Below are positions 2,105 through 35,815 of a stretch of DNA of 64,000 bases, one piece after another. Below the pieces are notes generated by a model that saw only the letters and a list, made by a program, of their open reading frames with translations, did no database searches and was not told where the DNA came from. The stretch is from positions 1 to 64,000 of the forward strand of contig CAMAZP010000009.1 in the NCBI GenBank assembly GCA_945863605.1, written 5' to 3'. The stretch is from Chitinophaga pinensis (GTDB lineage: Bacteria; Bacteroidota; Bacteroidia; Flavobacteriales_D; Crocinitomicaceae). Both the position numbers and the translations under genes were made by a program. Each line of letters opens with the position of its first letter. Positions within the stretch are counted from its first letter, which is position 1.

Positions 2105-3764
2105 ATCGCAACGCATGATTCGTAATCGGGAACAAGGTACTAAAGTTTCCAAACCGATAATTCGTATATCTGTCATAAGTATTTCACTTGCAATTGTTGT
2201 TAATTTAATTACTGTTGCAATTGTTACTGGTTTTCAGAACGAAATTCGTACCAAGATTACAAGTTTCAATGCGCCTTTATTCATTTCAAAAGCTGGAACA
2301 GTTGGTTTTTATGACTGTGAACCCATTTATAAAAACGGATTAAATCGCTACGATATTGCCAAAATCAATGGTTTAGCTGCAATAAATAACGTTTCTTATA
2401 AACCTGCGTTACTTCAATCGGACAAATTTCAAGACAAAATTAAACTTGCTTCCGGAAAAGATTCTTTGATTTCGAGACAAGAAATTGCTGGAATAATTAT
2501 GAAAGGAGTCGAGCAAAATTACAATTGGGATTTCATCAAAAGTAATTTAACGCAGGGTCGAATTCCTAATTTTAAAGCCTCTCAAGTTTCCAACGAAATC
2601 CTTATTTCTGAGAAGATATGTCAACAGTTGAATTTCAAATTGAACGAAGAAATTGCTGCTTTTTATGTGAAAAACCAACCGGTTCAACGACGTTATAAGA
2701 TTGTTGGGATTTTTAAAACTGGATTGGAAGAATACGATAAAAAGATACTTTTCTGCGACCTTCGAGAAGTACAAAAAATGAATGATTATGGTATTTCTTC
2801 ATCGATTGAAATAGCTGATACTTTATCTACAAATGGTTCGCTCATCGTAAAAGCTTCTATTTCTGGCTCAATGGAAAATCTTCAGTTTGATTGGGGAAAT
2901 GGAAGAGATATGTATAGTGGTTTTTATTTGAACACGATTAAAGACACTTCTATTCGCTTGATTGTTTATCAAATGGATTACAATTTGAACACGGCAAAAG
3001 CAATGGATACCGCGTATTTGAAAATTAAAACAACACGTAACTTTCCTGCTCAAGCGTTATTGAAAAACGAAGACAGAACGCTTCAAAAAGCAGTAATTAA
3101 TACCAACTTAATTGAATTGACTGACGGTACAACAAAAGTGAAAATTGAATCAAAAGAAGGTGCTGGCAATTATCAAGATTTTATCGCTGGAATGGAAGTG
3201 CATATTTCAAATTGGAAAGATTTAGAAAAAGTAGAAGAAGCATTGAAATCAAAATTGGAAATGCACCCAACTAGTCAAGGGGAATTATTACAAGTTTCCA
3301 GCATTTTGGAAAACGAAGGAGATTTGTTTACTTGGTTAAGTTTTCTTGATTATAACGTTATGATTATCTTATTCTTAATGTTGATTATCGGAATTATTAA
3401 TGTAGGTTCAGCAATGCTTGTTTTAATCGTAATGCGCACAAATTTTATTGGAATGTTAAAAGCAATGGGTGCAACGAATTGGAGCATTCGAAAAGTCTTT
3501 TTGTACCAAGCTTCTTATTTAATTTTGAAAGGTTTGATGTATGGAAATATTATTGGAGTTAGTTTATGTATAATTCAAGCTCAATTTGGTTTGTTTTCAC
3601 TTGATCCTGCCGTTTATTATTTAGATAAAGTTCCAGTGGAATTAACACTTTTTAATTGGTTGGGAATTAACTTACTAACATTTTTTGTTTGTCTTACTGC
3701 TTTGTTGTTGCCAAGTTATGTGGTAACACGTATTAGTCCTTCAAAAGCAATTCGATTCAATTAA
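2085..3764 (+). CDS. FtsX/LolE-like ABC transporter permease
   Basis: N-terminal SFEFFISQRMIR...SKPIIRISVISISLAIVVNLITVAIVTGFQNEIR and C-terminal TM block with MLKAMGATNWSIRKVFLYQASYL; TTG start. Confidence 0.85.
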   Translation: MSFEFFISQRMIRNREQGTKVSKPIIRISVISISLAIVVNLITVAIVTGFQNEIRTKITSFNAPLFISKAGTVGFYDCEPIYKNGLNRYDIAKINGLAAINNVSYKPALLQSDKFQDKIKLASGKDSLISRQEIAGIIMKGVEQNYNWDFIKSNLTQGRIPNFKASQVSNEILISEKICQQLNFKLNEEIAAFYVKNQPVQRRYKIVGIFKTGLEEYDKKILFCDLREVQKMNDYGISSSIEIADTLSTNGSLIVKASISGSMENLQFDWGNGRDMYSGFYLNTIKDTSIRLIVYQMDYNLNTAKAMDTAYLKIKTTRNFPAQALLKNEDRTLQKAVINTNLIELTDGTTKVKIESKEGAGNYQDFIAGMEVHISNWKDLEKVEEALKSKLEMHPTSQGELLQVSSILENEGDLFTWLSFLDYNVMIILFLMLIIGIINVGSAMLVLIVMRTNFIGMLKAMGATNWSIRKVFLYQASYLILKGLMYGNIIGVSLCIIQAQFGLFSLDPAVYYLDKVPVELTLFNWLGINLLTFFVCLTALLLPSYVVTRISPSKAIRFN

Positions 3765-3765
3765 A

Positions 3766-4293
3766 ATGCAGTTCAAAGTCGGAGATATCGTTTCACTATT
3801 GCATCAAACGGGTAAATACACCATTCTCGCAATAAATCATACGCAAATAACAATTGAGGACGAACATGGATTTGACCAAAAAATTGATGTAAAACACTTG
3901 GTTCCACAACGTCCAATTACAGTTTCTGAAGTTCTAATTTTTGATAAAGATTCGAGTCCGAATTCTAAAGTATTTCCATTAAAAACGAAGAATGAATATT
4001 TTGAAATTGATTTACATATTGAAGCATTGATTTCAAAAGATGCAGGATTGTCTGCGCATGATAAATTCATGTTACAAATTAAATCTTTCCAAGCGTTTAC
4101 GAATTTAATGATCGACAAACGACAGAAAAAATTCCGTATCATTCACGGTGCAGGCGAAGGTAAATTGAAAAATGAAATTCGTTCAATGCTCTCTGCTAGA
4201 AATGGTTTCACTATGCACGACGACCAATATTCGTTTGGTAGAGTTGGCGCATCAATCATTGAAATCAAGCTATCGGTTGCTGCTAAATTTTAA
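3766..4293 (+). CDS. Smr-domain protein
   Basis: IDLHIEAL... and RIIHGAGEGKLKNEIRSML (Smr signature). Confidence 0.82.
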   Translation: MQFKVGDIVSLLHQTGKYTILAINHTQITIEDEHGFDQKIDVKHLVPQRPITVSEVLIFDKDSSPNSKVFPLKTKNEYFEIDLHIEALISKDAGLSAHDKFMLQIKSFQAFTNLMIDKRQKKFRIIHGAGEGKLKNEIRSMLSARNGFTMHDDQYSFGRVGASIIEIKLSVAAKF

Positions 4294-4299
4294 ATTTAA

Positions 4300-5067
4300 T
4301 TATTTTCGTTTTACTTTTTCAAGTTGCTTTACAAATTCTTTAAGAATCAATAAATTTTCAGGTTGTTGTTTGTAATACCGTTCTGGATGCCATTGCACTC
4401 CTAAAATCCAACGTTTATCTAGCCCTTCCTTCCATTCTATTGCTTCGATAATTCCGTCAGGACTTGTTGCGCTGATTCTTAAATTTTTTCCTAGTAAAGA
4501 AACGGTTTGATGGTGCCAACTATTTACATTCGTTTGTCCAATACCAAGAATTTTATATAAATCAGAATTTGAATTAACTTCAATAGAATGAATTACATCA
4601 TTTAATTCTTTTGGGTCGCGATGATATATGAATATACTATCATTACTACAAAAAGTTGGGATATCAACACATAACTGACCTCCAAAATAAATATTCATTA
4701 ATTGCATTCCACGACAAATTCCTAGAATTGGAAGTGAATCAAACATTGCATTATTTAAAAGTAATAATTCAATTTTATCTCTTTCAGTTTCAGTTTTACA
4801 AAATGTTTCTAAAGAATCTTGTAAATAATGTTTTGGGTGAATGTCTAATCCTCCGCTTAATAACAAACCTGAACATTTTTTAATGTTTGAATTCCAATCC
4901 TTTTTATCAACTTTCATAAAGTCGATTAATTCAAAATTTGTATTAATATCTTTAAAATAGTTTTCTATATTTTTATTCATCTTTGCAGTTGCAATGTAGA
5001 TTTTATCAGTTTGTCCAAAAAAATTGATACAAACAATTAAGAAAGAAATTAAAATAAGATTTTTCAT
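4300..5067 (-). CDS. Class I glutamine amidotransferase-like / gamma-glutamyl-GABA hydrolase (C26) with signal peptide
   Basis: LLSGGLDIHP, ILGICRGMQLMN, WHHQTV, SPDGIIEAIE, VQWHPE. Confidence 0.85.
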   Translation of the reverse strand: MKNLILISFLIVCINFFGQTDKIYIATAKMNKNIENYFKDINTNFELIDFMKVDKKDWNSNIKKCSGLLLSGGLDIHPKHYLQDSLETFCKTETERDKIELLLLNNAMFDSLPILGICRGMQLMNIYFGGQLCVDIPTFCSNDSIFIYHRDPKELNDVIHSIEVNSNSDLYKILGIGQTNVNSWHHQTVSLLGKNLRISATSPDGIIEAIEWKEGLDKRWILGVQWHPERYYKQQPENLLILKEFVKQLEKVKRK

Positions 5068-5678
5068 TTATTTGAGAGTTGAAAAGGTTGTCGATGTTGA
5101 ATTGAACGTCCTAATGTAACTTCGTCTGCATATTGTAATTCTGATCCTACTGAAATTCCTCTCGATAATGTTGTTATCAAAATTTCATATGATTGTAATT
5201 TTTTGAATAAATAGAAGTTTGTGGTATCGCCCTCCATTGTTGGACTTAATGCAAAAATAACTTCTACAATTTCATTAGAAGTTGCTTTCTGAACAAGCTT
5301 TTCAATATTTAAATCAGCAGGACCAATTCCGTCCATTGGAGAAATAAGTCCACCTAATACGTGGTATATGCCTTTAAATGTGGATGTTGATTCAATAGCC
5401 ATAACGTCTCGAATATCTTCAACAACACAGATTATTTTTTGATCGCGAGAAGGATTTGTACAAATCGAACAAATTGGTTCATCAGAAATATTCCCACAAC
5501 TTAAGCAATTATTAAGGTTGCTTTTTAGCTCTAATATAGCTTTGGTAAAATCGACGATTTCTATTTCAGATCTTTTTAATAAGTTCAAAGCCAAACGTAA
5601 AGCTGTTTTTTTTCCAATTCCGGGTAATGAAGCAATTTGCTCTGTCGCATTTTCAAGAAATTTAGAAGGAATTTGCAT
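5064..5678 (-). CDS. recR: Recombination protein RecR
   Basis: LPGIGKKTALRLAL, zinc finger CLSCGNISDEPICSIC, Toprim VVEDIRDVMAIE. Confidence 0.96.
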   Translation of the reverse strand: MQIPSKFLENATEQIASLPGIGKKTALRLALNLLKRSEIEIVDFTKAILELKSNLNNCLSCGNISDEPICSICTNPSRDQKIICVVEDIRDVMAIESTSTFKGIYHVLGGLISPMDGIGPADLNIEKLVQKATSNEIVEVIFALSPTMEGDTTNFYLFKKLQSYEILITTLSRGISVGSELQYADEVTLGRSIQHRQPFQLSNK

Positions 5679-20408: not shown

Positions 20409-20890
20409 TTCAAGTAGGAATAATTATGGGGAGCGCATCAGATTTTCCAATTATGAATGCGGCCAAAGAATTTTTAGATGAAATGGGAATAGGTTCAGAG
20501 GTTAAAATTGTCTCTGCTCATCGAACTCCAGAATTAATGGTTGAATACGCAAAATCTGCTATTAATCGAGGTCTAAAAGTTATTATCGCAGGGGCTGGTG
20601 GAGCTGCTCATCTTCCTGGAATGACAGCATCAATGACAACTTTACCCGTAATAGGCGTTCCCATTAAATCATCGAATTCTATTGACGGTTGGGATTCAAT
20701 ACTGAGTATTTTGCAAATGCCTAATGGTATACCGGTAGCAACAGTTGCTTTAAACGGTGCAAAAAATGCTGGAATTTTAGCAGCAAGAATTATTGGAAGT
20801 TTTGATAAAGAAATTCAACAAAAATTAGATGCATACGCTATTTCAATGAAAGAAGCTGTTTTGGAAAGTCAGATTAAGATTGAAGAATGA
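20405..20890 (+). CDS. purE: 5-(carboxyamino)imidazole ribonucleotide mutase
   Basis: [53 protein letters not shown]. Confidence 0.97.
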
Positions 20891-20892
20891 TT

Positions 20893-20977
20893 TAATGAGG
20901 AACGAGGGAATGAGGAAATGACTTTAGGATGTAAGGAAATTAAGACTTTAGGATTTTATGAGGAATGAAGGATTTAG
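20893..20977 (+). repeat. Degenerate purine-rich repeat tract (ATGAGGAA / GACTTTAGGAT units)
   Basis: GACTTTAGGAT occurs at 20920 and 20944; several (A)TGAGGAA(T) units. Confidence 0.6.
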
Positions 20978-21005
20978 TTTAATAGTTGCCTTCGAGAGCC
21001 TCAGA

Positions 21006-21022
21006 CAATAATTAAATTATTG
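21006..21022. terminator. AT-rich palindrome between convergent purE and 5'-nucleotidase C-domain gene; possible terminator
   Basis: CAATAATT-A-AATTATTG perfect 8-bp arms; no strong T-run. Confidence 0.3.
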
Positions 21023-21067
21023 TTATGGAATTTAATTCTATACTTTTAATCCAAAAACTATCGGCAT

Positions 21068-21757
21068 TTAGTTACTGGTTGAAAGTGTTCCTTGATTTCT
21101 TGCTTCTTCTATTAAAATATCTCTTAATAGCTTTCCTGTTTGATTAACATTTGTACGTTTATCAAAAAAAGTCATTTTATCACCTCCATTCATTAAATAG
21201 TCCGAAGTAATAATCCAAAAATGAGTAGGATTTTTTGGGCTACTAGTAATCGATAATTTCCCTTCTTTTAGTGTCAAATTAGCCATTGGTTCACCACCTG
21301 TTTTATTCAGAAATGATTCAATTTCAGGTAAAATACCAATCGGTAATTCAACCCAAACGACTGTATTGTCGAATGGCATCACTTTATAGATATCACCCAA
21401 AGTCACATTTCCTTTACCAATACTGGAGCGAATTCCACCTGTGTTAAGTAAACAAACCACTGGCTGTGTTAATCGAACGTTTTTAGTTTGATTCACGAAT
21501 AGAGCATTCGCAACCCAATTCATTAAATTAGAGGATGGTCGTTGAACAATAAAATCAACATCAGCAGCTGCTAGTACTTCATTCATTCTTTTATCAAGTG
21601 AATCTTTAAATGGTGTTATGAAATTATTTACAGCGTTATCATTAGTAATTTCATTACTAACAGGTTCTTTTGATTGATTTGTGTTTATCACCAAATGCGA
21701 AGAGCAAGCCCAAAGGCCTGCTCCTGCAAAAATCAATATGCTATTTTTTAGTTTCAT
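21068..21757 (-). CDS. 5'-nucleotidase C-terminal domain lipoprotein (no metallophosphatase domain)
   Basis: CLLNTGGIRSSIGKGNVTLGDIYKVMPFDNTVVWVEL, TSDYLMNGGDKMTFF; lipobox-like GLWACSS. Confidence 0.85.
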   Translation of the reverse strand: MKLKNSILIFAGAGLWACSSHLVINTNQSKEPVSNEITNDNAVNNFITPFKDSLDKRMNEVLAAADVDFIVQRPSSNLMNWVANALFVNQTKNVRLTQPVVCLLNTGGIRSSIGKGNVTLGDIYKVMPFDNTVVWVELPIGILPEIESFLNKTGGEPMANLTLKEGKLSITSSPKNPTHFWIITSDYLMNGGDKMTFFDKRTNVNQTGKLLRDILIEEARNQGTLSTSN

Positions 21758-24021
21758 TCAATAATAAATTGTTGTTGAACTTGACCATAAATTGTGTCTA
21801 CAGTTAGAAAATATACTCCTGAATTAAAATCAGATACATTTAATTCCAATACTGGTAAGTCAATATTTGACTTTTTAGTAATTACTCTTCCTGTCATATC
21901 TGTAACTAAATAAGCTGTAATGCTAACACCATTTACTTGAGCAAATACTTTGTTGTTCGATGGCACTGGGAATACTGAAAAATTACTTTTTAACATTTCT
22001 GGTAAATCCACTAAACAAGCATTGTATGTCATATTTGAGAAATTAACGTGACATACAAAATCAGCTGAATCAATATAAGGGTTTCTGTTTGCTTGTGTTG
22101 AAAAAATAAATTCTTGACGAGCAATTTCGTAATTGTCTACAGGATCAGATTCGTGCCATTGTTTTAAAATGTCTTGCGATTGGTTTGATGGGATTTGCCA
22201 ATTATTTCCAGCTATTCCGTTATAACAAGTTGCCATATACATAATTGCACGTGCTGCATTTCCTTTTTGGCTTGCTCTAGGTTCAAAAACTAGTTGGTTT
22301 GAATTGTTGTAGCCAACTTTACAATCCAAATATGAAAATACTATATTTCCTGTAATAATATCTAAAGGTAAATTACTTCTTGGTGTATTCGCACTTTGCA
22401 AATTTGTTGGATATAAATTGTGTTGATCTGAATATTCATTTTTCTCAGGATTATCAGCTGGAAATGTTGGCATCCAAGAATGTGAGTAAGTGTGCTCTCT
22501 TGAATATCCAGTTGCAGTCCAATCAAAAGGATCATTAAATATTTTACGTTCACCAGAGTAAGCGCAGGTAACATACGATTGTCCGTTCGTTGTATCTCTT
22601 ACTTCAAATTGATTCATTACTGTTGATTTGTAATTGAAATATGAAACAAATGTGTGTGGGTTAATTAATGCTGATAGTGTAGTTAAAAAGTTCGGACTAG
22701 AAGAATTTATACCATTATAATAATTTCCAATATTCAATCCCGTACTTGAAACATTTCCAGTTGCTGGCGAAGTTGTCAAATAATTCTCAAAACCTGCTGT
22801 TCCGTTGAAAGCATAAACAGCAAAATGATAATTTTGATTTGCAACAACACCTCTTGGTGTAAATCCAGTTCCATTTCCAACATAAGCAACTCTTGCATCA
22901 CCAACAACATCACCTCTTTTGTAGTTTGTACCATCTATTGGTGCACCTGTAATTGCTGAACCCTTTTTCCAAAGAACAATGTACTTTTCAGCTCCTGTTC
23001 CTGCTGTGTATTGACCACCAATAGTGTAAGCTTTTACTAATGGAAAAGTTAAGTTTGTTGGGTTAGCTGTTGGTTGAGTTGCTAAATTATCTGTTCCAAC
23101 AGCTGAAAGGTTTATGATGTACGGATTTTCATCTGAATCATCATTTGCAATTGTTAAAATAGCTGATCTAGAACCAGTTCCTAGCGGTGCGAATGATAAA
23201 GTAAATGTTTGATTTCCAGATGCAGGAATTGAGGAAGTTGAAAGAGTGGTAGAAAAGTCAGCTGCATTTGTTCCAGTTAATGTTGTACCAGAAACAGTTA
23301 ATGCTTGAATTCCTGAATTTTCAATTACAATAGAAGTTGAAGCAGTATTTCCAACAACATAAGTTCCATTATTGAAAACAGTTGTTCCATTTAATTTTAC
23401 ATTGATTTCTTTAGATGGAGCAACATAAGCAAAAATATCGTTTAGGTTTCTTGGAACTAATTGATAGTTTGTATTGAATTGTCCAACTAAAGCAATAATT
23501 GTTTGAGGACCTGTTGGAATTGCAGTTCCATCAATATTAGTTGAACCATTAATACGAACATCCATAGTTGTAACACCATCCGTAATTTGTACAGTTGAGT
23601 TACCAGTTGCAAAAGAACCAGTAGTTGTGAATGTTACATTATCAACTCGAACTAATTGAGCTTCCAATGATTCGTTAATCGCAGCCAATGGAACAATTAA
23701 AGGTGTAGGTAAAGTTGCTGGACCGTGATTTGTAAAACTTGTAGTTGGTGAAATCTCTAAAAGTCCACTAAAATCGAATAAAACACCCGTTGCAGTAATT
23801 GAATCACCACGTTGAACAGAATTTAAATTACTTCCATATGCTGGTATTGCTGCGGTGCCATCTTGAATATAACGAATTGTTCCTAGTTCAGACCCGTTAG
23901 TAACGACACCAGTAACTGTAACAGTTTGACCGATACCTAAATTACGGACATCCGCGATGGTTTGAGTTGTTGCAAAAAAACTTGCAAAAGCTACGAAACC
24001 AGTTAAAATTGATTTTCTCAT
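21754..24021 (-). CDS. Secreted endonuclease I with N-terminal OB-fold-like region and T9SS sorting domain
   Basis: OB-like GIGQTVTVTGVVTNGSELG...IQDGTAAIPAYG; endonuclease I GYSREHTYSHSWMPTFPA...YSDQHNLYPT; C-terminal FSVFPVPSNNKVFAQV...GVYFLTV...QQFIIE. Confidence 0.87.
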   Translation of the reverse strand: MRKSILTGFVAFASFFATTQTIADVRNLGIGQTVTVTGVVTNGSELGTIRYIQDGTAAIPAYGSNLNSVQRGDSITATGVLFDFSGLLEISPTTSFTNHGPATLPTPLIVPLAAINESLEAQLVRVDNVTFTTTGSFATGNSTVQITDGVTTMDVRINGSTNIDGTAIPTGPQTIIALVGQFNTNYQLVPRNLNDIFAYVAPSKEINVKLNGTTVFNNGTYVVGNTASTSIVIENSGIQALTVSGTTLTGTNAADFSTTLSTSSIPASGNQTFTLSFAPLGTGSRSAILTIANDDSDENPYIINLSAVGTDNLATQPTANPTNLTFPLVKAYTIGGQYTAGTGAEKYIVLWKKGSAITGAPIDGTNYKRGDVVGDARVAYVGNGTGFTPRGVVANQNYHFAVYAFNGTAGFENYLTTSPATGNVSSTGLNIGNYYNGINSSSPNFLTTLSALINPHTFVSYFNYKSTVMNQFEVRDTTNGQSYVTCAYSGERKIFNDPFDWTATGYSREHTYSHSWMPTFPADNPEKNEYSDQHNLYPTNLQSANTPRSNLPLDIITGNIVFSYLDCKVGYNNSNQLVFEPRASQKGNAARAIMYMATCYNGIAGNNWQIPSNQSQDILKQWHESDPVDNYEIARQEFIFSTQANRNPYIDSADFVCHVNFSNMTYNACLVDLPEMLKSNFSVFPVPSNNKVFAQVNGVSITAYLVTDMTGRVITKKSNIDLPVLELNVSDFNSGVYFLTVDTIYGQVQQQFIIE

Positions 24022-24030
24022 AGTTAAAAT

Positions 24031-26781
24031 TTAAAATTGTATTCCAAGTGAAACATTAAATCTGAAGCCACCTCCAAACATTACATTTGCTGATTGAGCA
24101 TCGAAGTTATCGAAAGTTCCATTTTGATTGTTGGTCGCATCGGAAATATAAGTGGCATTTAATAAATTGGTAATCGAACCGCTAGCAATAAATGCTACTG
24201 TTTTAAGTGGGTATCTATAACCTGCAAATAAATTAACTAAAGAATAAGCAGGCATTTTCCATGACTCTCGTCCTCCATTTGCTCCTTTTAGTGAGAATGG
24301 GTCAAAGTTTGCATAATAACGGTCGAAATATTGTGTTTGAATCTTGAAATACAAATTTTTGATCGGCTCATATCTTAATGAAGCAGCCAATGCTGTTTGT
24401 GCTGCATCACCTACATGAACCCCTTTTGCATCAAATGTAAAGGATGTATCATATTCAGGAACTGTAACTGTTTTCGATGAATTCCAAAACCAATCACCAT
24501 AAGAGAACATTAACTCAGCAGAAAGTTTATCATTTATTTTATATGCAAAATCAATTTCTCCACCTAAGTGAATGGCATCCATACCGTTAATGTTAATACG
24601 AATTACGTCTTCTGGATCTTGTGGATTTGGAACTTGAACACCATAAGGAATAGGTTTATTTTTCCAATTTGTAGCATAAGCATTTACGTTTACTCCGAAT
24701 TTTTTACTTGCAAAGTTGTAACCACCTTCAAGTGCTAAAATTTGCTCATTTGAAATTATGCCAAAAAACTCATTAGAATTATTGTCAATTACATTAGAAA
24801 ATTGTGGTGTTCTATTCAAAAAACCTAAATTAATGTAGGCAGTTGCGTCTTTGTGTACATTGTAGCTAAATCCTGATTTAAAAGTAAAACCAGGGATATA
24901 TTTCCAATCAGTAGCATAATCTTCTAGTCCTTCTGAAGATGCATTGTAAGTTTGTCCATTATAAGTAATTGTGTCAGTTGCTCCGATTCTCAAAACAGTA
25001 TCTTCCAATTCTAATACCTTCTTTTGGAAATAATCAACTCCTTTGTAACCATTTACAATTCCCGATAAATTTATGAAATATGCAAATTTATCACTTGTAT
25101 ATTCTATTTGACCGAAAGCACCCGTCCATTGTACGATTCCTTTTCTGTCGGCATTAAACGTGTTTTTCGCAATTTTATCGCCAACACGCATCATAGCAGT
25201 TGCAGAATTATTATTTGAAGTACTTACAAAATAATCACCTCCTAATAAATCCTTCACTTCTTGATAATGTCTTCCTTCGTAATAACGAACATCTAGGCCT
25301 CCAGAAAATTCTAAAGATTTTGAATAGGTGTAATTAAATTGTCCTAAATAACCTGACCAAAAATGATTATTGATACTTGCCAACAAAATTTGACTTGATT
25401 GTATTTCTGTTGGACTATATATTGTGTTTATATTAGGAGTTCCAAATAAAGAACTCACTTTGTTTTCTTGTTCAATTAAATCCCAATTAATTAGACCTGT
25501 TGAATCTCTTAAAATAGCACCTGAATTTAACATACTTGTTCCTCCACCTCGTCCAATTGACACATAAAGTAAGTTTGAGATTGCAAACTTTTCATTTACT
25601 TTCCAAAAATCTTTTAAAGTAATTTGTGGTTTAGAATAGAAATTTAAGCGTTCATTTACTATTTCTTTTTCACCATTTTCATTCGTTCTATATCCCCAAT
25701 GTTGATTAAAACGTATTCCCATATCCCTAAAAATTGTAGTTGAATCAATCGGCACATTTAATTCTCTCGCTTTGTCAGCATCAAAATATTGAATTGCTTG
25801 ATTAAATGATCGTTGACCGTGTTTTTGTGGTGCTGCAAATGCAGAAATGGTTAAAAGGTGATTTTTAATTTTTTTAGATACTTTACCATAACCAAAGAAA
25901 CCTTGACTTGGTGTGCCATAAACCCAACCATCTGCTTGCTTGTATGAACCAGAAACTGTAAAACCCCATCCACTTTTTGTCATACCTGAATTGTATGCAA
26001 ATGTTGAACGAAGCATATTTCCTGTTCCATATTCTTGTTTAAATGAACCTCCTTTTTTACTACCAATTCCTGAAGTAATTATGTTGATAGTTCCACCTAT
26101 TGACGGCATTGCTATTTTTGTAGCACCAAGTCCACGCTGCACCTGCATTTGTGAAGTAATAGCATCCAATCCAAACCAATTTGACCAATAAACAGCACCA
26201 TTTTCCATGTCATTTACTGGGACCCCATCAATCATAACCCCCACATTACGTTGATCGAAACCACGAACACTAATTCTAGCATCTCCATCTCCACCACCAG
26301 TTTGTGTGGCATAAACACCTGCTGTTCCGTTTAAAAGCATTGGTAAATCTCTTGACGCAAGTTCTTCAGTGATTTTTTGTAAAGAAATTTTAGTTACTGC
26401 AACCGGTACATTTCCCTCTTTTACAAGGTTTCCGATTACTTTAACCTCTTCCAATTCTTGACTTCCTCCGAGAACAATATCTTGTTTAACAAGTGGTTTG
26501 TCAATTTTCAAATTCATTTGAATCGTATCAAAAGACAAAATTGTAACCATCATAGAATAAGAACCATAAGGTAAGTTTGGTAGTTCATAATTACCTTCTG
26601 TGTTGGTTACAGCTCTTTTGGGAGTGGAATTATTTTTAGCTGTAAGTGTAATTTTTGCACCTACCACAGGTTGTTTTGTAACATTATCAACTATGGAACC
26701 ACTCAATTTACCACTTGATTGTGCCAAGCTTAAAATTGATAATAGGGAAAAAAAAGAAACAATTAGAATCTTCATAATCAT
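24031..26781 (-). CDS. TonB-dependent receptor with carboxypeptidase-like regulatory domain
   Basis: GKLSGSIVDNVTKQPVVGAKITL, plug ISVRGFDQRNVGVMIDGVPVNDMENGAVYWSNW, C-terminal GGFRFNVSLGIQF. Confidence 0.95.
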   Translation of the reverse strand: MIMKILIVSFFSLLSILSLAQSSGKLSGSIVDNVTKQPVVGAKITLTAKNNSTPKRAVTNTEGNYELPNLPYGSYSMMVTILSFDTIQMNLKIDKPLVKQDIVLGGSQELEEVKVIGNLVKEGNVPVAVTKISLQKITEELASRDLPMLLNGTAGVYATQTGGGDGDARISVRGFDQRNVGVMIDGVPVNDMENGAVYWSNWFGLDAITSQMQVQRGLGATKIAMPSIGGTINIITSGIGSKKGGSFKQEYGTGNMLRSTFAYNSGMTKSGWGFTVSGSYKQADGWVYGTPSQGFFGYGKVSKKIKNHLLTISAFAAPQKHGQRSFNQAIQYFDADKARELNVPIDSTTIFRDMGIRFNQHWGYRTNENGEKEIVNERLNFYSKPQITLKDFWKVNEKFAISNLLYVSIGRGGGTSMLNSGAILRDSTGLINWDLIEQENKVSSLFGTPNINTIYSPTEIQSSQILLASINNHFWSGYLGQFNYTYSKSLEFSGGLDVRYYEGRHYQEVKDLLGGDYFVSTSNNNSATAMMRVGDKIAKNTFNADRKGIVQWTGAFGQIEYTSDKFAYFINLSGIVNGYKGVDYFQKKVLELEDTVLRIGATDTITYNGQTYNASSEGLEDYATDWKYIPGFTFKSGFSYNVHKDATAYINLGFLNRTPQFSNVIDNNSNEFFGIISNEQILALEGGYNFASKKFGVNVNAYATNWKNKPIPYGVQVPNPQDPEDVIRININGMDAIHLGGEIDFAYKINDKLSAELMFSYGDWFWNSSKTVTVPEYDTSFTFDAKGVHVGDAAQTALAASLRYEPIKNLYFKIQTQYFDRYYANFDPFSLKGANGGRESWKMPAYSLVNLFAGYRYPLKTVAFIASGSITNLLNATYISDATNNQNGTFDNFDAQSANVMFGGGFRFNVSLGIQF

Positions 26782-26793
26782 GAGATAAACATT

Positions 26794-26820
26794 AAAAAAG
26801 GTCGATTGCTCGACCCTTCC
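26794..26820 (-). terminator. Terminator-like hairpin between lamin-tail gene and TonB receptor
   Basis: - strand GGTCGA-GCAA-TCGACC followed by TTTTTT. Confidence 0.65.
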
Positions 26821-26836
26821 TTTACTAATTTATAGA

Positions 26837-27901
26837 TTATTTTATGATAACTTTTCTTAATTGTTGCTCACCATTTAGACTGATGATTTTCAAGAAATAA
26901 ACTCCTCTTAAATCGTTTAAGTCTAGTGTAATCAATTGTTTGTTAGTTATGTTTGATACAGTATTAACAATTTGACCTAAAGAATTCACTAATTGAATTG
27001 ATTTTAAATTTCCATTATTGCGAATATTCACAATACCGTTGCTTGGATTTGGATATACAATTAAAGAATTTGAATTAAGTTCATCAACTGATGCAGGATT
27101 ACAAGCACAATCGTGAGTTCCTAATGAGAACCAATTTCCATCTAATATTGGATTTCCACTTGTTCCGAATAATGTATCGCCATTAGCATCTAATCGAACA
27201 ATTACAGCTGGAATTGTATCGTATTCGGATAATGGGTCAAAGAAAGAAGGGTTTGCAGTTACACCTTTTTTAACAGTCGCTTTACGTATCATTGAATGAT
27301 CTTTAGTAACTAAAACACCTAAACCAGTACTGTAGGGAAATTGAGTTGACCAAGCGCCATCGTTTCCAGATGCTGAACCTGTTTCATTTGCAGGGTTTTC
27401 ACCAATTTTACCGAATACATCAATAATTTGAAATCCAGTAACATTTGCTGCGTTAATTAAGGTTGTTGGTTGAGCTGGAAGCGTACCTTTTGCTAACATT
27501 ACAGCATCATTACCATTCCAGTAAAATGAACTTGATAGATCATAGTCTGGAGCAAAGAAACCATCAGCTCTAACTTCTAATGAATCCCAAATTGGAGCTT
27601 CTTGGCCCTCTCCATTTGGATCTCTTTTGTCTAAAACGGCAACAAAAACTCCGTGAGCAGGAACAATTCCAGAAAGCTGAACTGAATTTGCAACAGTCGC
27701 AGTTGTTGAACCATTCGAATAACGAGCCACAAAATAACCTGATAGGTTAATAGGAGTAGAAGTTGGATTATAAATTTCTAAAGCTTTATTATTTCCCCAT
27801 CCTTCAACATACTCAGATATGAATAATTGAGAACAATCAATAACTTGAGAAAATCCAAGCGTACTTGTTAAAAGACCAATACTTAGTAATAGTTTTTTCA
27901 T
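26837..27901 (-). CDS. Lamin-tail-domain secreted protein with T9SS sorting domain
   Basis: LFISEYVEGWGNNKALEIYNPTSTPINLSGYFVARYSNG; C-terminal LIVYPNPSNGIVNIRNNGNLKSI...GVYFLKI. Confidence 0.87.
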   Translation of the reverse strand: MKKLLLSIGLLTSTLGFSQVIDCSQLFISEYVEGWGNNKALEIYNPTSTPINLSGYFVARYSNGSTTATVANSVQLSGIVPAHGVFVAVLDKRDPNGEGQEAPIWDSLEVRADGFFAPDYDLSSSFYWNGNDAVMLAKGTLPAQPTTLINAANVTGFQIIDVFGKIGENPANETGSASGNDGAWSTQFPYSTGLGVLVTKDHSMIRKATVKKGVTANPSFFDPLSEYDTIPAVIVRLDANGDTLFGTSGNPILDGNWFSLGTHDCACNPASVDELNSNSLIVYPNPSNGIVNIRNNGNLKSIQLVNSLGQIVNTVSNITNKQLITLDLNDLRGVYFLKIISLNGEQQLRKVIIK

Positions 27902-28179: not shown

Positions 28180-30342
28180 ATGAATAGAATTAATTTCATT
28201 TTATTGTTTCTCTTTATCTCCTTTTTCGCATTAAATCAGGAACTTACAATAGAAAAGATTTGGAAAAAGTATGAATTCTACTCAAAAAGCGTCGAAGGTT
28301 TTAAATCGATGAAAGATGGTGAAACATATACAAGACCATTAGATGATAGGTCGATTAAAAAATATAGTATTACCGATGCAACTGATCAAGGGAAAAGATT
28401 AGTTGATGGTAAAGATTTATTATTCAATGGGAAAGAAGTGGTTTATGACGACTATGAATTCAATGCAGATGAATCAAAAATTTTGTTTTTAACTGAAACA
28501 AAATCTGTTTACAGAAGAAGTTTTAAAGCTGTTTATTTTCTTTATGATATTGCTACAAAGAAACTTCAACCTTTAGATACAGAACATCAACCGCAAACAC
28601 TGGCTGAATATTCACCCGATGGAACAATGGTTTCTTACATTCATGGTAATGATTTATTTGTGAAAAATATTAAATCAGGATCAGTAACTAAATTGACGAA
28701 AGATGGAAAAAAGAATAAAATTATTAATGGTACAACGGATTGGGTATATGAAGAAGAATTTTCGATCACAAAGGCATATGCATGGTCAGCTGATAGCAAA
28801 ATGATTGCATTCTTAAAATTTAATGAACGAGAAGTCCCTGAATTTTCAATGGCAATATACGGTGATTTGTATCCAGAGCAATACAAATTCAAGTATCCAA
28901 AAGCGGGAGAAGTAAACAGTAAAGTTACAGCGCACATTGTTAAAGTAAAAGATGCTTCAATTAAACAAATAACATTAGGTGAATATGAATACATTCCTCG
29001 CTTAAATTGGTCTAAAACTTCAAATAAACTAATCTTACAAACTTTAAATCGTCATCAAAGTCATTTGAAATATCACTTAATTGATTTCACTACTAAAAAA
29101 CCAACTCAACAGGTCATTTTTGAGGAGAAATCAGAAACTTATGTTGAAATAGATAATAATTTGTTAATATTAAATGATGGTAAATCAATTTTGAGAACTT
29201 CTGAAATTGATGGTTACAATCACATTTATCTACTTGAATTTGATGGAAAGACAACCCAGATTACAAAAGGGAATTGGGATGTAATTGAATTTTTAGGAAT
29301 TGACGCTTCCAATAAAACAATTTACTATAGTTCGGCAGAGCCTTCTTCTATCAACAAGGCGATTTATTCTATTCAAATTGATGGTTCAAATAAAAAACTG
29401 ATAAGTTCAACTAAAGGCTACAACGATGCTGAATTCACAGAGGGAATGAATTATTGTGTTTTATCACATTCAGACGGAAACACGCCTCCAACTCATTCGC
29501 TTTACAAAAATGATGGAACAAAATTGAGAGATTTAGAATCGAATGAAGAACTTAAAAACAGAATTAAAAGCTATAATTTTCCTCAAAAAGAGTTTTTAAC
29601 TTTTAATGCAAATGGAGTTAAACTAAATGGTTGGATCCTAAAGCCTGCTAATTTTGATGCGACAAAAAAATATCCTGTTTATTTCAATGTTTATGGTGGA
29701 CCAGGACATAACGAAGTATTAGATGCATGGGATGGAAACGATTATATTTATCATCAATTGTTGGCGCAAAAAGGTTATATCGTTGTAACAGTTGACCCAA
29801 GAGGAACGATGTACCAAGGAGCAAAATTCAAAAAATCAACTTATTTACAACTTGGTAAACTGGAGATTGAAGACATCATCAATACCGCAAAAGAAATTCA
29901 AAAATTAGAATACGTTGACCCTGCAAGAATTGGAATTATGGGTTGGAGTTACGGTGGATTTATGGCTTCATTGGCAATCACAAAAGGCGCAGATGTTTTC
30001 AAAATGGCAATTGCGGTGGCACCTGTGACCAATTGGAGATATTACGACAACATTTACACAGAGCGTTTTATGCGCACACCGAAGGAAAATGAAGATGGTT
30101 ACGATCGCAATTCTCCTATCAATTTTGTCGACCAATTGAAAGGAAAGTACTTTTTAATTCACGGTTCTGCGGACGATAATGTGCATTACCAAAATTCAAT
30201 GGAAATGATTTCTGCATTGGTTAAAGCCAACAAACAATTTGACTTATTCATCTATCCCAACAAAAATCACGGAATTTATGGTGGCAACACACGTAATCAC
30301 TTGTTTCAAATGATGTTGGATTATGTTTTGGAGAATTTATAA
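28180..30342 (+). CDS. S9 family peptidase (dipeptidyl peptidase IV)
   Basis: DWVYEEEF, GWSYGGFMASL (catalytic Ser), VYGGPGHNEV, HGSADDNVHYQNS, NKNHGIYGG. Confidence 0.95.
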   Translation: MNRINFILLFLFISFFALNQELTIEKIWKKYEFYSKSVEGFKSMKDGETYTRPLDDRSIKKYSITDATDQGKRLVDGKDLLFNGKEVVYDDYEFNADESKILFLTETKSVYRRSFKAVYFLYDIATKKLQPLDTEHQPQTLAEYSPDGTMVSYIHGNDLFVKNIKSGSVTKLTKDGKKNKIINGTTDWVYEEEFSITKAYAWSADSKMIAFLKFNEREVPEFSMAIYGDLYPEQYKFKYPKAGEVNSKVTAHIVKVKDASIKQITLGEYEYIPRLNWSKTSNKLILQTLNRHQSHLKYHLIDFTTKKPTQQVIFEEKSETYVEIDNNLLILNDGKSILRTSEIDGYNHIYLLEFDGKTTQITKGNWDVIEFLGIDASNKTIYYSSAEPSSINKAIYSIQIDGSNKKLISSTKGYNDAEFTEGMNYCVLSHSDGNTPPTHSLYKNDGTKLRDLESNEELKNRIKSYNFPQKEFLTFNANGVKLNGWILKPANFDATKKYPVYFNVYGGPGHNEVLDAWDGNDYIYHQLLAQKGYIVVTVDPRGTMYQGAKFKKSTYLQLGKLEIEDIINTAKEIQKLEYVDPARIGIMGWSYGGFMASLAITKGADVFKMAIAVAPVTNWRYYDNIYTERFMRTPKENEDGYDRNSPINFVDQLKGKYFLIHGSADDNVHYQNSMEMISALVKANKQFDLFIYPNKNHGIYGGNTRNHLFQMMLDYVLENL

Positions 30343-34449: not shown

Positions 34450-35049
34450 ATGTTTTTAACAAACGAGAACGATTGTAGCTTGATTCAATTGTACATTGCT
34501 GGTAATGAGAAAGCATTCGAAGTTTTATTGCTTCGTCATAAAGATCGTATTTTTAGATTTATCAAACATAAAGTCAAAGACTTTGATTTAGCAAATGACC
34601 TTTTTCAAGAAACATTTGTTAAAATTATTAATACTTTGAAATTGGGAAATTATAATGAGGAAGGAAAGTTTTTACCTTGGTCTTTACGAATAGCTCATAA
34701 TTTAATAATAGACTTTTATCGCCGTCAAAGTAAGGTTCGAATCATTTCAGAGAGCAATTCTTTAGATGAGGAATATTCTGTTTTTTACAAAATAGCTGCA
34801 AATGAGAAGAACTATTTACAACAAATTACTTACGATGAATTAGAATCTCAAATGGTTAATTTGGTAACTTATTTACCAAAACCACAAAGAGAAATGATAG
34901 AAATGCGCATATTTCAAGATATGTCTTTTAAAGAAATTGCTGAATTGGAAAATATTAGTATTAATACGGCTTTAGGAAGAATGAGATATGCTTTAATAAA
35001 TATTCGTAAATTAATAGAGAAGCATAATATTGTAACTGAAATAGCTTAA
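34450..35049 (+). CDS. Sigma-70 family (ECF-type) RNA polymerase sigma factor
   Basis: Region 2 FRFIKHKVKDFDLANDLFQETFVKI; region 4 YLPKPQREMIEMRIFQDMSFKEIAELENISINTALGRMRYAL. Confidence 0.93.
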   Translation: MFLTNENDCSLIQLYIAGNEKAFEVLLLRHKDRIFRFIKHKVKDFDLANDLFQETFVKIINTLKLGNYNEEGKFLPWSLRIAHNLIIDFYRRQSKVRIISESNSLDEEYSVFYKIAANEKNYLQQITYDELESQMVNLVTYLPKPQREMIEMRIFQDMSFKEIAELENISINTALGRMRYALINIRKLIEKHNIVTEIA

Positions 35050-35053
35050 TTTA

Positions 35054-35815
35054 TTACTGCGCCACAAAGCGATAGCGAATATATCCATCTTGCTTTGATG
35101 AACCAGCATTGAATTTTGACATTCCAGCATATTTCAGTGCTTGATCCCGCATACACGTAGTTGCATTTTCACAACGGATTTCGTCAATAGTGGTGCTGAT
35201 TACTTTTCCTAAATTATCTACTGAAATTAAAACAACCACTGTTCCAGCAGAGCCATAACCACAAGTATAACCTGGATTTCTAACAAACCAATTATTATTT
35301 TCGTAGGCAGTTCTTCCTTTTAAACTGAAATCAACCATCACATTTCCAGCAAATTGATTGGATTTTGAAGTTTGAGTTGAGGGATTGGGTTTGCTATTCG
35401 CAGCAGCTGTAATTTTCTTTTTTTGTTCCTCCGCTTCTCTTTTGATTTTTTCGCGTTCCTTTTCTCCTCCAGCTTCTTTAAATAATTGCTTTTCAAAATC
35501 TTTAGCTGTTTGTTCTGGATTACCACTAGCTTGATCTTGCGACCAGTTTTTGTCTGATTTTTTTCGTGTATCGTTGTTGTCACGTACCACATTTGTTATT
35601 TCACCATTCAAATTGGAGGGTGGCACTTGAATTTGATCTTTTGATAATTCAATTTCTTCAGGTTCTTCGATTCGTGAGTATTTTTCGAAAGGTTCAATGT
35701 AAACTGTTTCTTTGTAGGAAGAAATTTGGAAGTACATAAAAAGAAATACATAAACCGACAAAGCAATGATAATTGCAATGAAAAAGTGATCAGGTCGGTT
35801 TAAAATTCCTTTCAT
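35054..35815 (-). CDS. TonB-like energy transducer / AgmX-like protein
   Basis: N-terminal TM, charged linker, C-terminal GTVVVLISVDNLGKVISTTI...ALKYAGMSKFNAGSSKQDGYIRYRFVAQ. Confidence 0.72.
   Translation of the reverse strand: MKGILNRPDHFFIAIIIALSVYVFLFMYFQISSYKETVYIEPFEKYSRIEEPEEIELSKDQIQVPPSNLNGEITNVVRDNNDTRKKSDKNWSQDQASGNPEQTAKDFEKQLFKEAGGEKEREKIKREAEEQKKKITAAANSKPNPSTQTSKSNQFAGNVMVDFSLKGRTAYENNNWFVRNPGYTCGYGSAGTVVVLISVDNLGKVISTTIDEIRCENATTCMRDQALKYAGMSKFNAGSSKQDGYIRYRFVAQ

Follow-up and report, generated by a model that had tools for sequence, protein, structure and literature searches.

Gene organization of the locus

The window, which here means the whole 64,000-nucleotide stretch that was analyzed, carries four consecutive minus-strand genes. 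They encode a secreted lamin-tail-domain protein (LTD), a TonB-dependent receptor (TBDR), a T9SS-sorted endonuclease I and a lipoprotein with a 5'-nucleotidase C-domain (NTC). An earlier note had described this arrangement from the letters alone; open reading frames and Pfam domains confirm it, and the gene order is conserved in relatives. The features are as follows.

26837–27901, minus strand: LTD, secreted lamin-tail-domain protein, 354 aa (Pfam PF00932, 53.4 bits; PF18962, 47.6 bits)
about 27482–27832, minus strand: lamin-tail domain within the 354-aa protein (PF00932)
about 26843–27058, minus strand: T9SS type A sorting tail of the LTD protein (PF18962)
24031–26781, minus strand: TBDR, TonB-dependent receptor, 916 aa (Pfam TonB Plug, 52.4 bits)
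about 26518–26706, minus strand: CarboxypepD_reg of TBDR (Pfam)
about 26089–26412, minus strand: plug of TBDR (Pfam)
21754–24021, minus strand: T9SS endonuclease I with N-terminal DUF5689 and an Ig-like domain, 755 aa (PF04231, 91.9 bits)
23425–23964, minus strand: DUF5689 region of the endonuclease, two tandem OB folds in the model (AF2, pLDDT 96.3)
22063–22515, minus strand: endonuclease I catalytic domain, residues 503–653 (PF04231, motif conservation)
21760–21975, minus strand: T9SS C-terminal sorting domain of the endonuclease (PF18962, 31.1 bits; TIGR04183)
21068–21757, minus strand: NTC, lipoprotein 5'-nucleotidase C-domain, 229 aa (5_nucleotid_C, PF02872, 59.1 bits)
28180–30342, plus strand: DPP IV-like S9 peptidase (DPP4), divergent flanking gene (PF00930, PF00326)

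LTD is the first gene of the conserved operon, and its product is also matched by the ExeM model in the NCBIfam search. The start of NTC overlaps the stop of the endonuclease by 4 bases.

Endonuclease I and the DUF5689 region

Pfam finds DUF5689 (49.2 bits), an ASH Ig-like domain, Endonuclease_1 and Por_Secre_tail in the endonuclease. The Endonuclease_1 score lies far above its cut-off of 25, and the residues R508-E509-H510, N545 and R548-S549-N550 are invariant in 25 of 25 homologues. The PDB sequence matches, 1oup and 1ouo, are Vibrio Vvn/Dns-type enzymes, whose catalytic domain with its EH and N/RSN motifs is common to the window enzyme. Unlike them, the window enzyme also carries tandem OB folds, an Ig-like domain and a T9SS sorting domain.

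The OB-like N-terminal region that had been noticed earlier corresponds to DUF5689, and its model consists of two tandem OB folds. The best PDB fold matches of this model are the HIN-200 tandem-OB domains of IFI16, MNDA, p202 and p204, followed by Teb1 and archaeal RPA. The TM score of ~0.4 over both domains indicates that the two OB units are arranged relative to each other in another way than in the matches. By sequence profile, DUF5689 gives marginal matches or none in the PDB, and so does the TBDR sequence. Three unrelated nuclease-type folds, EndoI, PLD and Exo_endo_phos, occur in fusions with DUF5689. From the fold and these fusions, we infer that the DUF5689 region is the part of the nuclease that binds DNA. 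This assigns a predicted tandem-OB fold of the DNA-binding type to a domain of hitherto unknown function.

The window genome encodes only one DUF5689 protein. The DUF5689 profile also has a match in the B. subtilis control genome, which is perhaps YhcR. YhcR of Bacillus combines OB, nuclease and 5'-nucleotidase domains in a single polypeptide, and ExeM combines LTD, OB and exonuclease domains in the same way; these domain types are common to the window operon. Neither of them is known to have an adjoining TonB receptor.

A split 5'-nucleotidase

NTC contains PF02872 and lacks the metallophosphatase domain in Pfam. The 5'-nucleotidase proposed earlier is therefore real as a C-domain, but it amounts only to the half that binds the substrate, and an unlinked gene, NTcat, is required for catalysis. 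The idea that NTC could act as a nucleotidase by itself was rejected, since it has no catalytic domain. NTcat is a separate gene with PF00149 only, located outside the window on another contig of the same genome (G000:C16, about 34853–35800). NTcat aligns to residues about 4–270 of UshA/CD73 and NTC to the C-domain. Judging from its sequence, NTC would bind the substrate in a split enzyme of the UshA/CD73 type. Both halves of UshA and CD73 have their homologues here, but the enzyme is divided into two genes.

The motifs of both halves are conserved. In NTC, the lipobox Cys18 as well as N105, G108, R110, F129, N131, D193 and F197 are invariant in 23 of 23 sequences. In NTcat, LHTNDTHS, GNH.FD and GGH.H are invariant. 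NTcat follows NTC directly in 69 of 78 loci of relatives, and its placement on another contig means that the operon is split in the window genome. The own-genome NTcat is 66–75% identical to the four operon copies compared. In some relatives (e.g. L045, L071, L083, L169 and L171) the locus is without NTC-NTcat. The lipoprotein character of NTC and the twin-arginine-like NTcat point to the periplasm as the site of dephosphorylation, which would thus follow import. A search of the window genome for a CNT-type nucleoside permease (PF07662) found none.

Conservation of the operon in relatives

The gene order holds in the 79 species-level loci that were fetched, with identities reaching down to about 50%. 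Among related loci with enough flank for scoring, TBDR is retained, adjoining the endonuclease, in 79 of 79; LTD is present in 74 of 74, NTC in 76 of 84 and NTcat at the frequency given above. The gene order is conserved far beyond chance, and the neighborhood of receptor and nuclease is kept in related genomes. Among 79 Crocinitomicaceae genomes, 47 have both receptor and nuclease, 1 has the receptor only, 8 the nuclease only and 23 neither. The co-occurrence check proposed for this receptor subfamily and endonuclease I is thus strongly positive: 47 of 48 receptor genes adjoin the nuclease, and the 48th is at a contig end.

DPP4 is found at the same flank in 61 of 67 testable loci. Citrate synthase, beyond DPP4, is also kept (35/41), so the linkage of DPP4 may be plain synteny. 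DPP4 was rejected as a member of the system, its linkage being little better than that of a housekeeping neighbor. Part of the conservation within the family is ordinary inherited synteny, as the retained citrate synthase shows. Synteny among family members was therefore not taken as sufficient proof, and more weight was given to domain swaps, to mutual exclusion and to linkage between differing flanks. Linkage of the last kind is seen in other families (L139, L144 and L155). At L139, from another family of the same taxonomic order, LTD-TBDR-DUF5689 is kept and PLDc_2 replaces Endonuclease_1; the receptor of this locus nests inside the clade of the window receptor.

These data bear on the possibility that a nuclease for biofilm or DNA clearance merely lies beside an unrelated receptor and nucleotidase. 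The retention of DPP4 and citrate synthase in most loci would fit such coincidental synteny, as would the lone endonuclease genes without a receptor at the site in g84 and G186. The nearly constant pairing argues against it, and so do its recurrence between different flanks and a cassette swap, described below, that retains the nucleotidase. Coincidence is already disfavored and is considered very improbable.

Relationships of the receptor

The AF2 model of TBDR (pLDDT 68.8) matches TonB-dependent transporters in the PDB. Because the matches span siderophore, copper and PQQ receptors, the substrate cannot be read from the fold. TBDR scores 40 bits against the TIGR01779 equivalog cut-off of 599.7 and 29.6 against the MxcH cut-off of 925. 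A siderophore or B12 receptor was rejected on these scores. Neither of the computational outcomes that would have spoken against the earlier note, a receptor of that kind or a neighborhood lost in relatives, was obtained. That note had also likened the locus to a polysaccharide utilisation locus. This analogy is loose, and an actual locus of that kind was rejected: Pfam finds no SusD domain among the four genes, and NCBIfam gives no SusC/RagA family match for TBDR.

In the tree, the window TBDR groups with nuclease- and phosphodiesterase-linked receptors. Related receptors elsewhere have an Endonuclease_1 gene nearby at L144 and L155. In two other family-level groups, the gene after the receptor has a start that resembles ENPP (11 loci by reading), and Pfam types it as PF01663 in 2 of them, L145 and L153. 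These nucleotide pyrophosphatase/phosphodiesterase-like neighbors, together with the 5'-nucleotidase of the operon and the siderophore and copper receptors among the structural neighbors, could mean that the cargo of the receptor is not DNA fragments but mononucleotides, phosphate esters or a metal chelate that the enzymes require. However, receptors of the window clade are constantly paired with a DNase bearing OB folds of the DNA-binding type, not with a phosphodiesterase, and siderophore or metal genes are absent from the operon. Such a substrate seems improbable, more so than the transformation role considered below.

A second cassette and natural transformation

A second cassette, composed of a homologous TBDR and a DUF5689 lipoprotein with the same NTC-NTcat, is found in 17 other genomes of the family. 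No genome has both this and the window type, which is seen in 48 genomes (p=3e-9); as the types sort mostly by genus, phylogeny may account for part of this mutual exclusion. Genus g97, however, includes species of either type. There, one cassette is swapped for the other at a single site that keeps DPP4, citrate synthase, NTC and NTcat as its flanks. The second-type receptor (e.g. L192) is homologous to the window receptor along its length (hhalign, 837 columns), and pairs of this type are widespread in the class.

In Riemerella anatipestifer, markerless deletion of RS04915, an outer-membrane protein with PF13620, or of its neighbor RS04920 (DUF5689/DUF5017) abolishes transformation (PMC8459023). 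Among the essential proteins of that study are some without a counterpart in known machinery (PMC8459023). Transformation is also lowered in tonB mutants (PMC8383284). The second cassette fits the published description of this pair, the comparison being made by description. RA0C_RS04915/RS04920 resembles the window in that an outer-membrane CarboxypepD_reg protein lies beside a DUF5689 protein, and the receptors of look-alike pairs are homologous to that of the window and replace its cassette within one family. RA0C_RS04920 has DUF5689 and DUF5017 with no nuclease reported, whereas in the window DUF5689 forms the N-terminal region of a T9SS endonuclease I that lacks DUF5017. The window locus further differs in its LTD protein.

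The window receptor and DUF5689 protein could accordingly be the outer-membrane step of DNA uptake in natural transformation, with nutrition secondary or absent. The Riemerella mutants and the widespread, homologous and mutually exclusive L192-type pairs speak for this. Nevertheless, the window DUF5689 belongs to a secreted nuclease that looks active and would degrade transforming DNA, and it is not obvious what the 5'-nucleotidase halves would contribute to transformation. In the tree, the window receptor lies outside the clade of RS04915-like (A6) receptors, which is separate and supported at 100/100. Transformation as the function of the window operon is considered unlikely. The C7 receptor of the same genome was also tried as a transformation-type paralogue and rejected, as it falls outside both clades and the genome has only one DUF5689 protein.

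Proposed function and implications

The preferred reading is that LTD-TBDR-(DUF5689)endonuclease I-NTC-NTcat is a TonB-dependent nucleic-acid scavenging operon of Crocinitomicaceae, an aquatic family, and we consider this likely. A gene set nearly always in the same order probably cuts environmental DNA, imports the pieces and removes phosphate. The T9SS-secreted endonuclease would hold extracellular DNA by its tandem OB folds and then cut it. The LTD protein would act as a secreted accessory and may be a further protein that binds DNA or surfaces. Through the adjoining TBDR, the oligo- or mononucleotides so produced would enter the periplasm, where NTC and NTcat, presumably assembled as the split 5'-nucleotidase, would release phosphate and nucleosides. 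In the window genome, the last operon gene, NTcat, would have moved to another contig. The earlier note had proposed capture, cutting, dephosphorylation and import. Its parts fit, but the order would be binding, cutting, import and then dephosphorylation; with this and the 5'-nucleotidase corrected, its DNA-scavenging interpretation is partly supported and looks largely right.

Bacteroidota break down extracellular DNA by means of secreted nucleases together with nucleotidases in the periplasm (Wasmund et al. 2021, PMC8289736). The degraders in that study resemble the window in their secreted nucleases and periplasmic 5'-nucleotidases, and lamin-tail domains are marked in a figure. The word TonB is absent from the main text, and no receptor or conserved operon is described. 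Literature searches joining lamin tail domain, nuclease and TonB, or Crocinitomicaceae, nuclease and TonB, found no paper in the library searched.

How DNA passes the outer membrane of Bacteroidota is an unsettled question. It can be speculated, at somewhat less than even confidence, that DNA itself, as oligomers or strands and not just nucleotides, crosses through a TBDR family in which every receptor has a DUF5689 surface protein with tandem OB folds as its partner. Transformation would be the role of one branch, while the window branch, with its built-in nuclease and split 5'-nucleotidase, would serve nutrition, and lineages would swap branches at the same chromosomal site. The operon is a second, independent line to a TonB-dependent receptor with DUF5689 as the answer for DNA crossing, and it offers a nutritional branch that is testable in cultured relatives. 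It would supply the missing import step for the recycling of DNA by secreted nucleases and nucleotidases in Bacteroidota.

Conservation of the Operon

The four genes are arranged as follows, with domains assigned by Pfam.

26837–27901, minus strand: lamin-tail protein (LTD and a T9SS tail)
24031–26781, minus strand: TonB-dependent receptor, TBDR (CarboxypepD_reg and plug)
21754–24021, minus strand: endonuclease I, EndoI (DUF5689, ASH Ig-like, Endonuclease_1 and a T9SS tail)
21068–21757, minus strand: lipoprotein 5'-nucleotidase C-domain, NTC (5_nucleotid_C)

The ORFs, coordinates and gene overlap proposed in the earlier note were all correct on ORF check. The window contains no tRNA and no Rfam match.

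A scan of a genome collection with one genome per species yielded 79 loci, mostly from Crocinitomicaceae. Among these and the family loci fetched later, counting only loci with enough flank, the receptor is retained in 79/79, LTD in 74/74, and NTC in 76/84. A separate catalytic half of the nucleotidase (NTcat) immediately follows NTC in 69/78. Four other genes of the window, encoding PurE, TatA, the ABC-F protein, and the mutase subunit, are kept in 0 of 41–55 loci. On the upstream side, the S9 peptidase gene DPP4 (61/67) and citrate synthase (35/41) are also well kept, and the operon conservation is thus in part inherited synteny.

The window-type receptor is present in 48 and the endonuclease in 55 of 79 family genomes; they co-occur (Fisher exact p = 3e-12, phylogeny not corrected for). 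Side-by-side comparison of coordinates places them next to each other in 47 of 48 cases, and the 48th (genome G191) is at a contig end. In the receptor-less genus g84 and genome G186, a lone endonuclease I, without LTD, NTC, and NTcat, is flanked by the genes for lipoamide dehydrogenase and DPP4.

Loci where endonuclease I alone occupies the operon site (LTD, receptor, and nucleotidase lost)
L231, 8140–9510
L232, 8492–9865
L233, 8037–10202

At locus L056 (5341–7983), the receptor is 83% identical to that of the window and the adjoining endonuclease 64%; at L061 (5247–7988), the values are 65% and 76%. These identities are out of step, which suggests that the receptor gene was exchanged on its own. 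In L163 (10867–13032) and similar loci (L160–L168), a different N-terminal stretch of ~150 aa, without a Pfam match, replaces the recognisable DUF5689 of the endonuclease.

Split 5'-Nucleotidase

NTC spans the C-terminal, substrate-binding domain only. In the window's genome there is a single full-length UshA-like protein (L006, 568 aa). There is also a single NTcat, on contig C16 (315 aa in the gene call), which aligns with residues ~4–270 of CD73 and UshA and keeps the metal motifs. Compared with four operon copies, this NTcat shows 66–75% identity. Together with the position of NTcat in the relatives, this indicates that the ancestral operon is LTD-TBDR-EndoI-NTC-NTcat, and that the linkage of the last gene has been lost here. 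A dispersed repeat lies just downstream of NTC (20885–21060), at the point of NTcat loss, and seven more partial copies of it, 76–90% identical, occur elsewhere in the genome. The close relative L017 carries a ~2.5-kb insert between NTC and NTcat (2640–5137), perhaps an intermediate of the operon break-up.

DUF5689 as a Predicted Tandem OB Fold

The N-terminus of the endonuclease had been described as OB-like, and this is now a supported assignment. In the PDB, the AF2 model of its DUF5689 (pLDDT 96.3) best matches the HIN-200 domains of IFI16, MNDA, p202, and p204, followed by Teb1 and archaeal RPA, all of which are tandem-OB nucleic-acid binders. TM-scores are ~0.4 and rmsd is mostly 6–9 Å, meaning that the OB units of the pair differ in arrangement and that the match is to the fold, not to a particular complex. 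DUF5689 is a putative DNA-binding domain. DUF5689 is fused with Endonuclease_1 in the window protein and relative L169, with PLDc_2 in L139, L197, L198, L200, and L193 (where DUF5689 scores below the cut-off), and with Exo_endo_phos in L140. DUF5689 also matches in the Bacillus subtilis control genome, in a gene that may be the nuclease YhcR.

Related Receptors and Cassette Replacement

In Riemerella anatipestifer, deletion of either RS04915 (outer membrane, PF13620) or RS04920 (DUF5689 and DUF5017) abolishes transformation (PMC8459023). Transformation is lowered in tonBA and tonBB mutants, for tonBB probably via iron (PMC8383284). Pairs resembling RS04915/RS04920 are common across the class; the likeness is in domain content and order, the Riemerella pair being known by its published description. 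At L192, for example, a PF13620 receptor neighbours a protein with DUF5689 and a weak DUF5017 match. RS04915-like receptors (alignment A6) match window-type receptors (A1) with probability 100 and 22% identity across 837 columns. TonB receptors are all related to one another, and the match is therefore evidence of kinship rather than of function. A6 receptors occur in 17/79 family genomes, and the window type in 0/17 of these (Fisher p = 3e-9). Most A6 clusters in the family also contain NTC and NTcat, plus an Exo_endo_phos nuclease.

Within genus g97, citrate synthase-DPP4 is followed by LTD-TBDR-EndoI-NTC-NTcat in genome G177. In G189, citrate synthase-DPP4-(another gene)-Exo_endo_phos is followed by TBDR(A6)-DUF5689 lipoprotein-(another gene)-NTC-NTcat. 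Identity between the two genomes is 84% for citrate synthase and 69% for DPP4 versus 22% for the receptors. One cassette has taken the place of the other at this site, and no other observation hints more strongly that the two serve a similar task.

The closest receptors from beyond the family come from among 149 genomes of the phylum. L139, from another family of the same order, has LTD-TBDR followed by a DUF5689, PLDc_2, and T9SS-tail protein, and its receptor nests inside the window clade in the trees. Endonuclease-linked and phosphodiesterase-linked receptors form neighbouring clades. At L144 and L155, TBDR is followed by a protein without a Pfam match and then an Endonuclease_1 gene (assigned with Pfam for L144 and with a profile built in this analysis for L155). 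At L140, a protein with two DUF5689, Exo_endo_phos, and T9SS domains is encoded two genes upstream of the receptor. In 11 loci of the distant families f14 and f21 (L141, L142, L145, L147, L148, L151, L118, L119, L153, L154, and L156), a receptor or tandem receptor pair precedes a gene with an ENPP-like start, PF01663 being confirmed by Pfam in both tested (L145 and L153). This is a possible nucleotide- or phosphodiester-uptake pair. The ENPP-like neighbour is absent beside the receptors of L143, L146, L149, L152, and L157. Pfam gave no match for genes adjoining the receptors in L144 (5224–6888), L155 (5502–6662), L150 (10649–11779), and L157 (4947–6578); those of L144, L155, and L150 are lipoprotein-like.

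Proposed Function

The secreted endonuclease would capture DNA via its OB folds and cut it, the TonB receptor would import the cleavage products, and NTC-NTcat would dephosphorylate them in the periplasm. A periplasmic site is favoured because NTC is a lipoprotein and the start of NTcat, judged by eye, is twin-arginine-like. Our literature search, thin on subscription journals and preprints, found no description of such an operon as such. A search for the CNT nucleoside permease family (PF07662) found none in the window's genome. As far as sequence can tell, the locus, read in the earlier note as nucleic-acid-scavenging, is a conserved TonB operon, probably dedicated to DNA, and its main gain may be phosphate.
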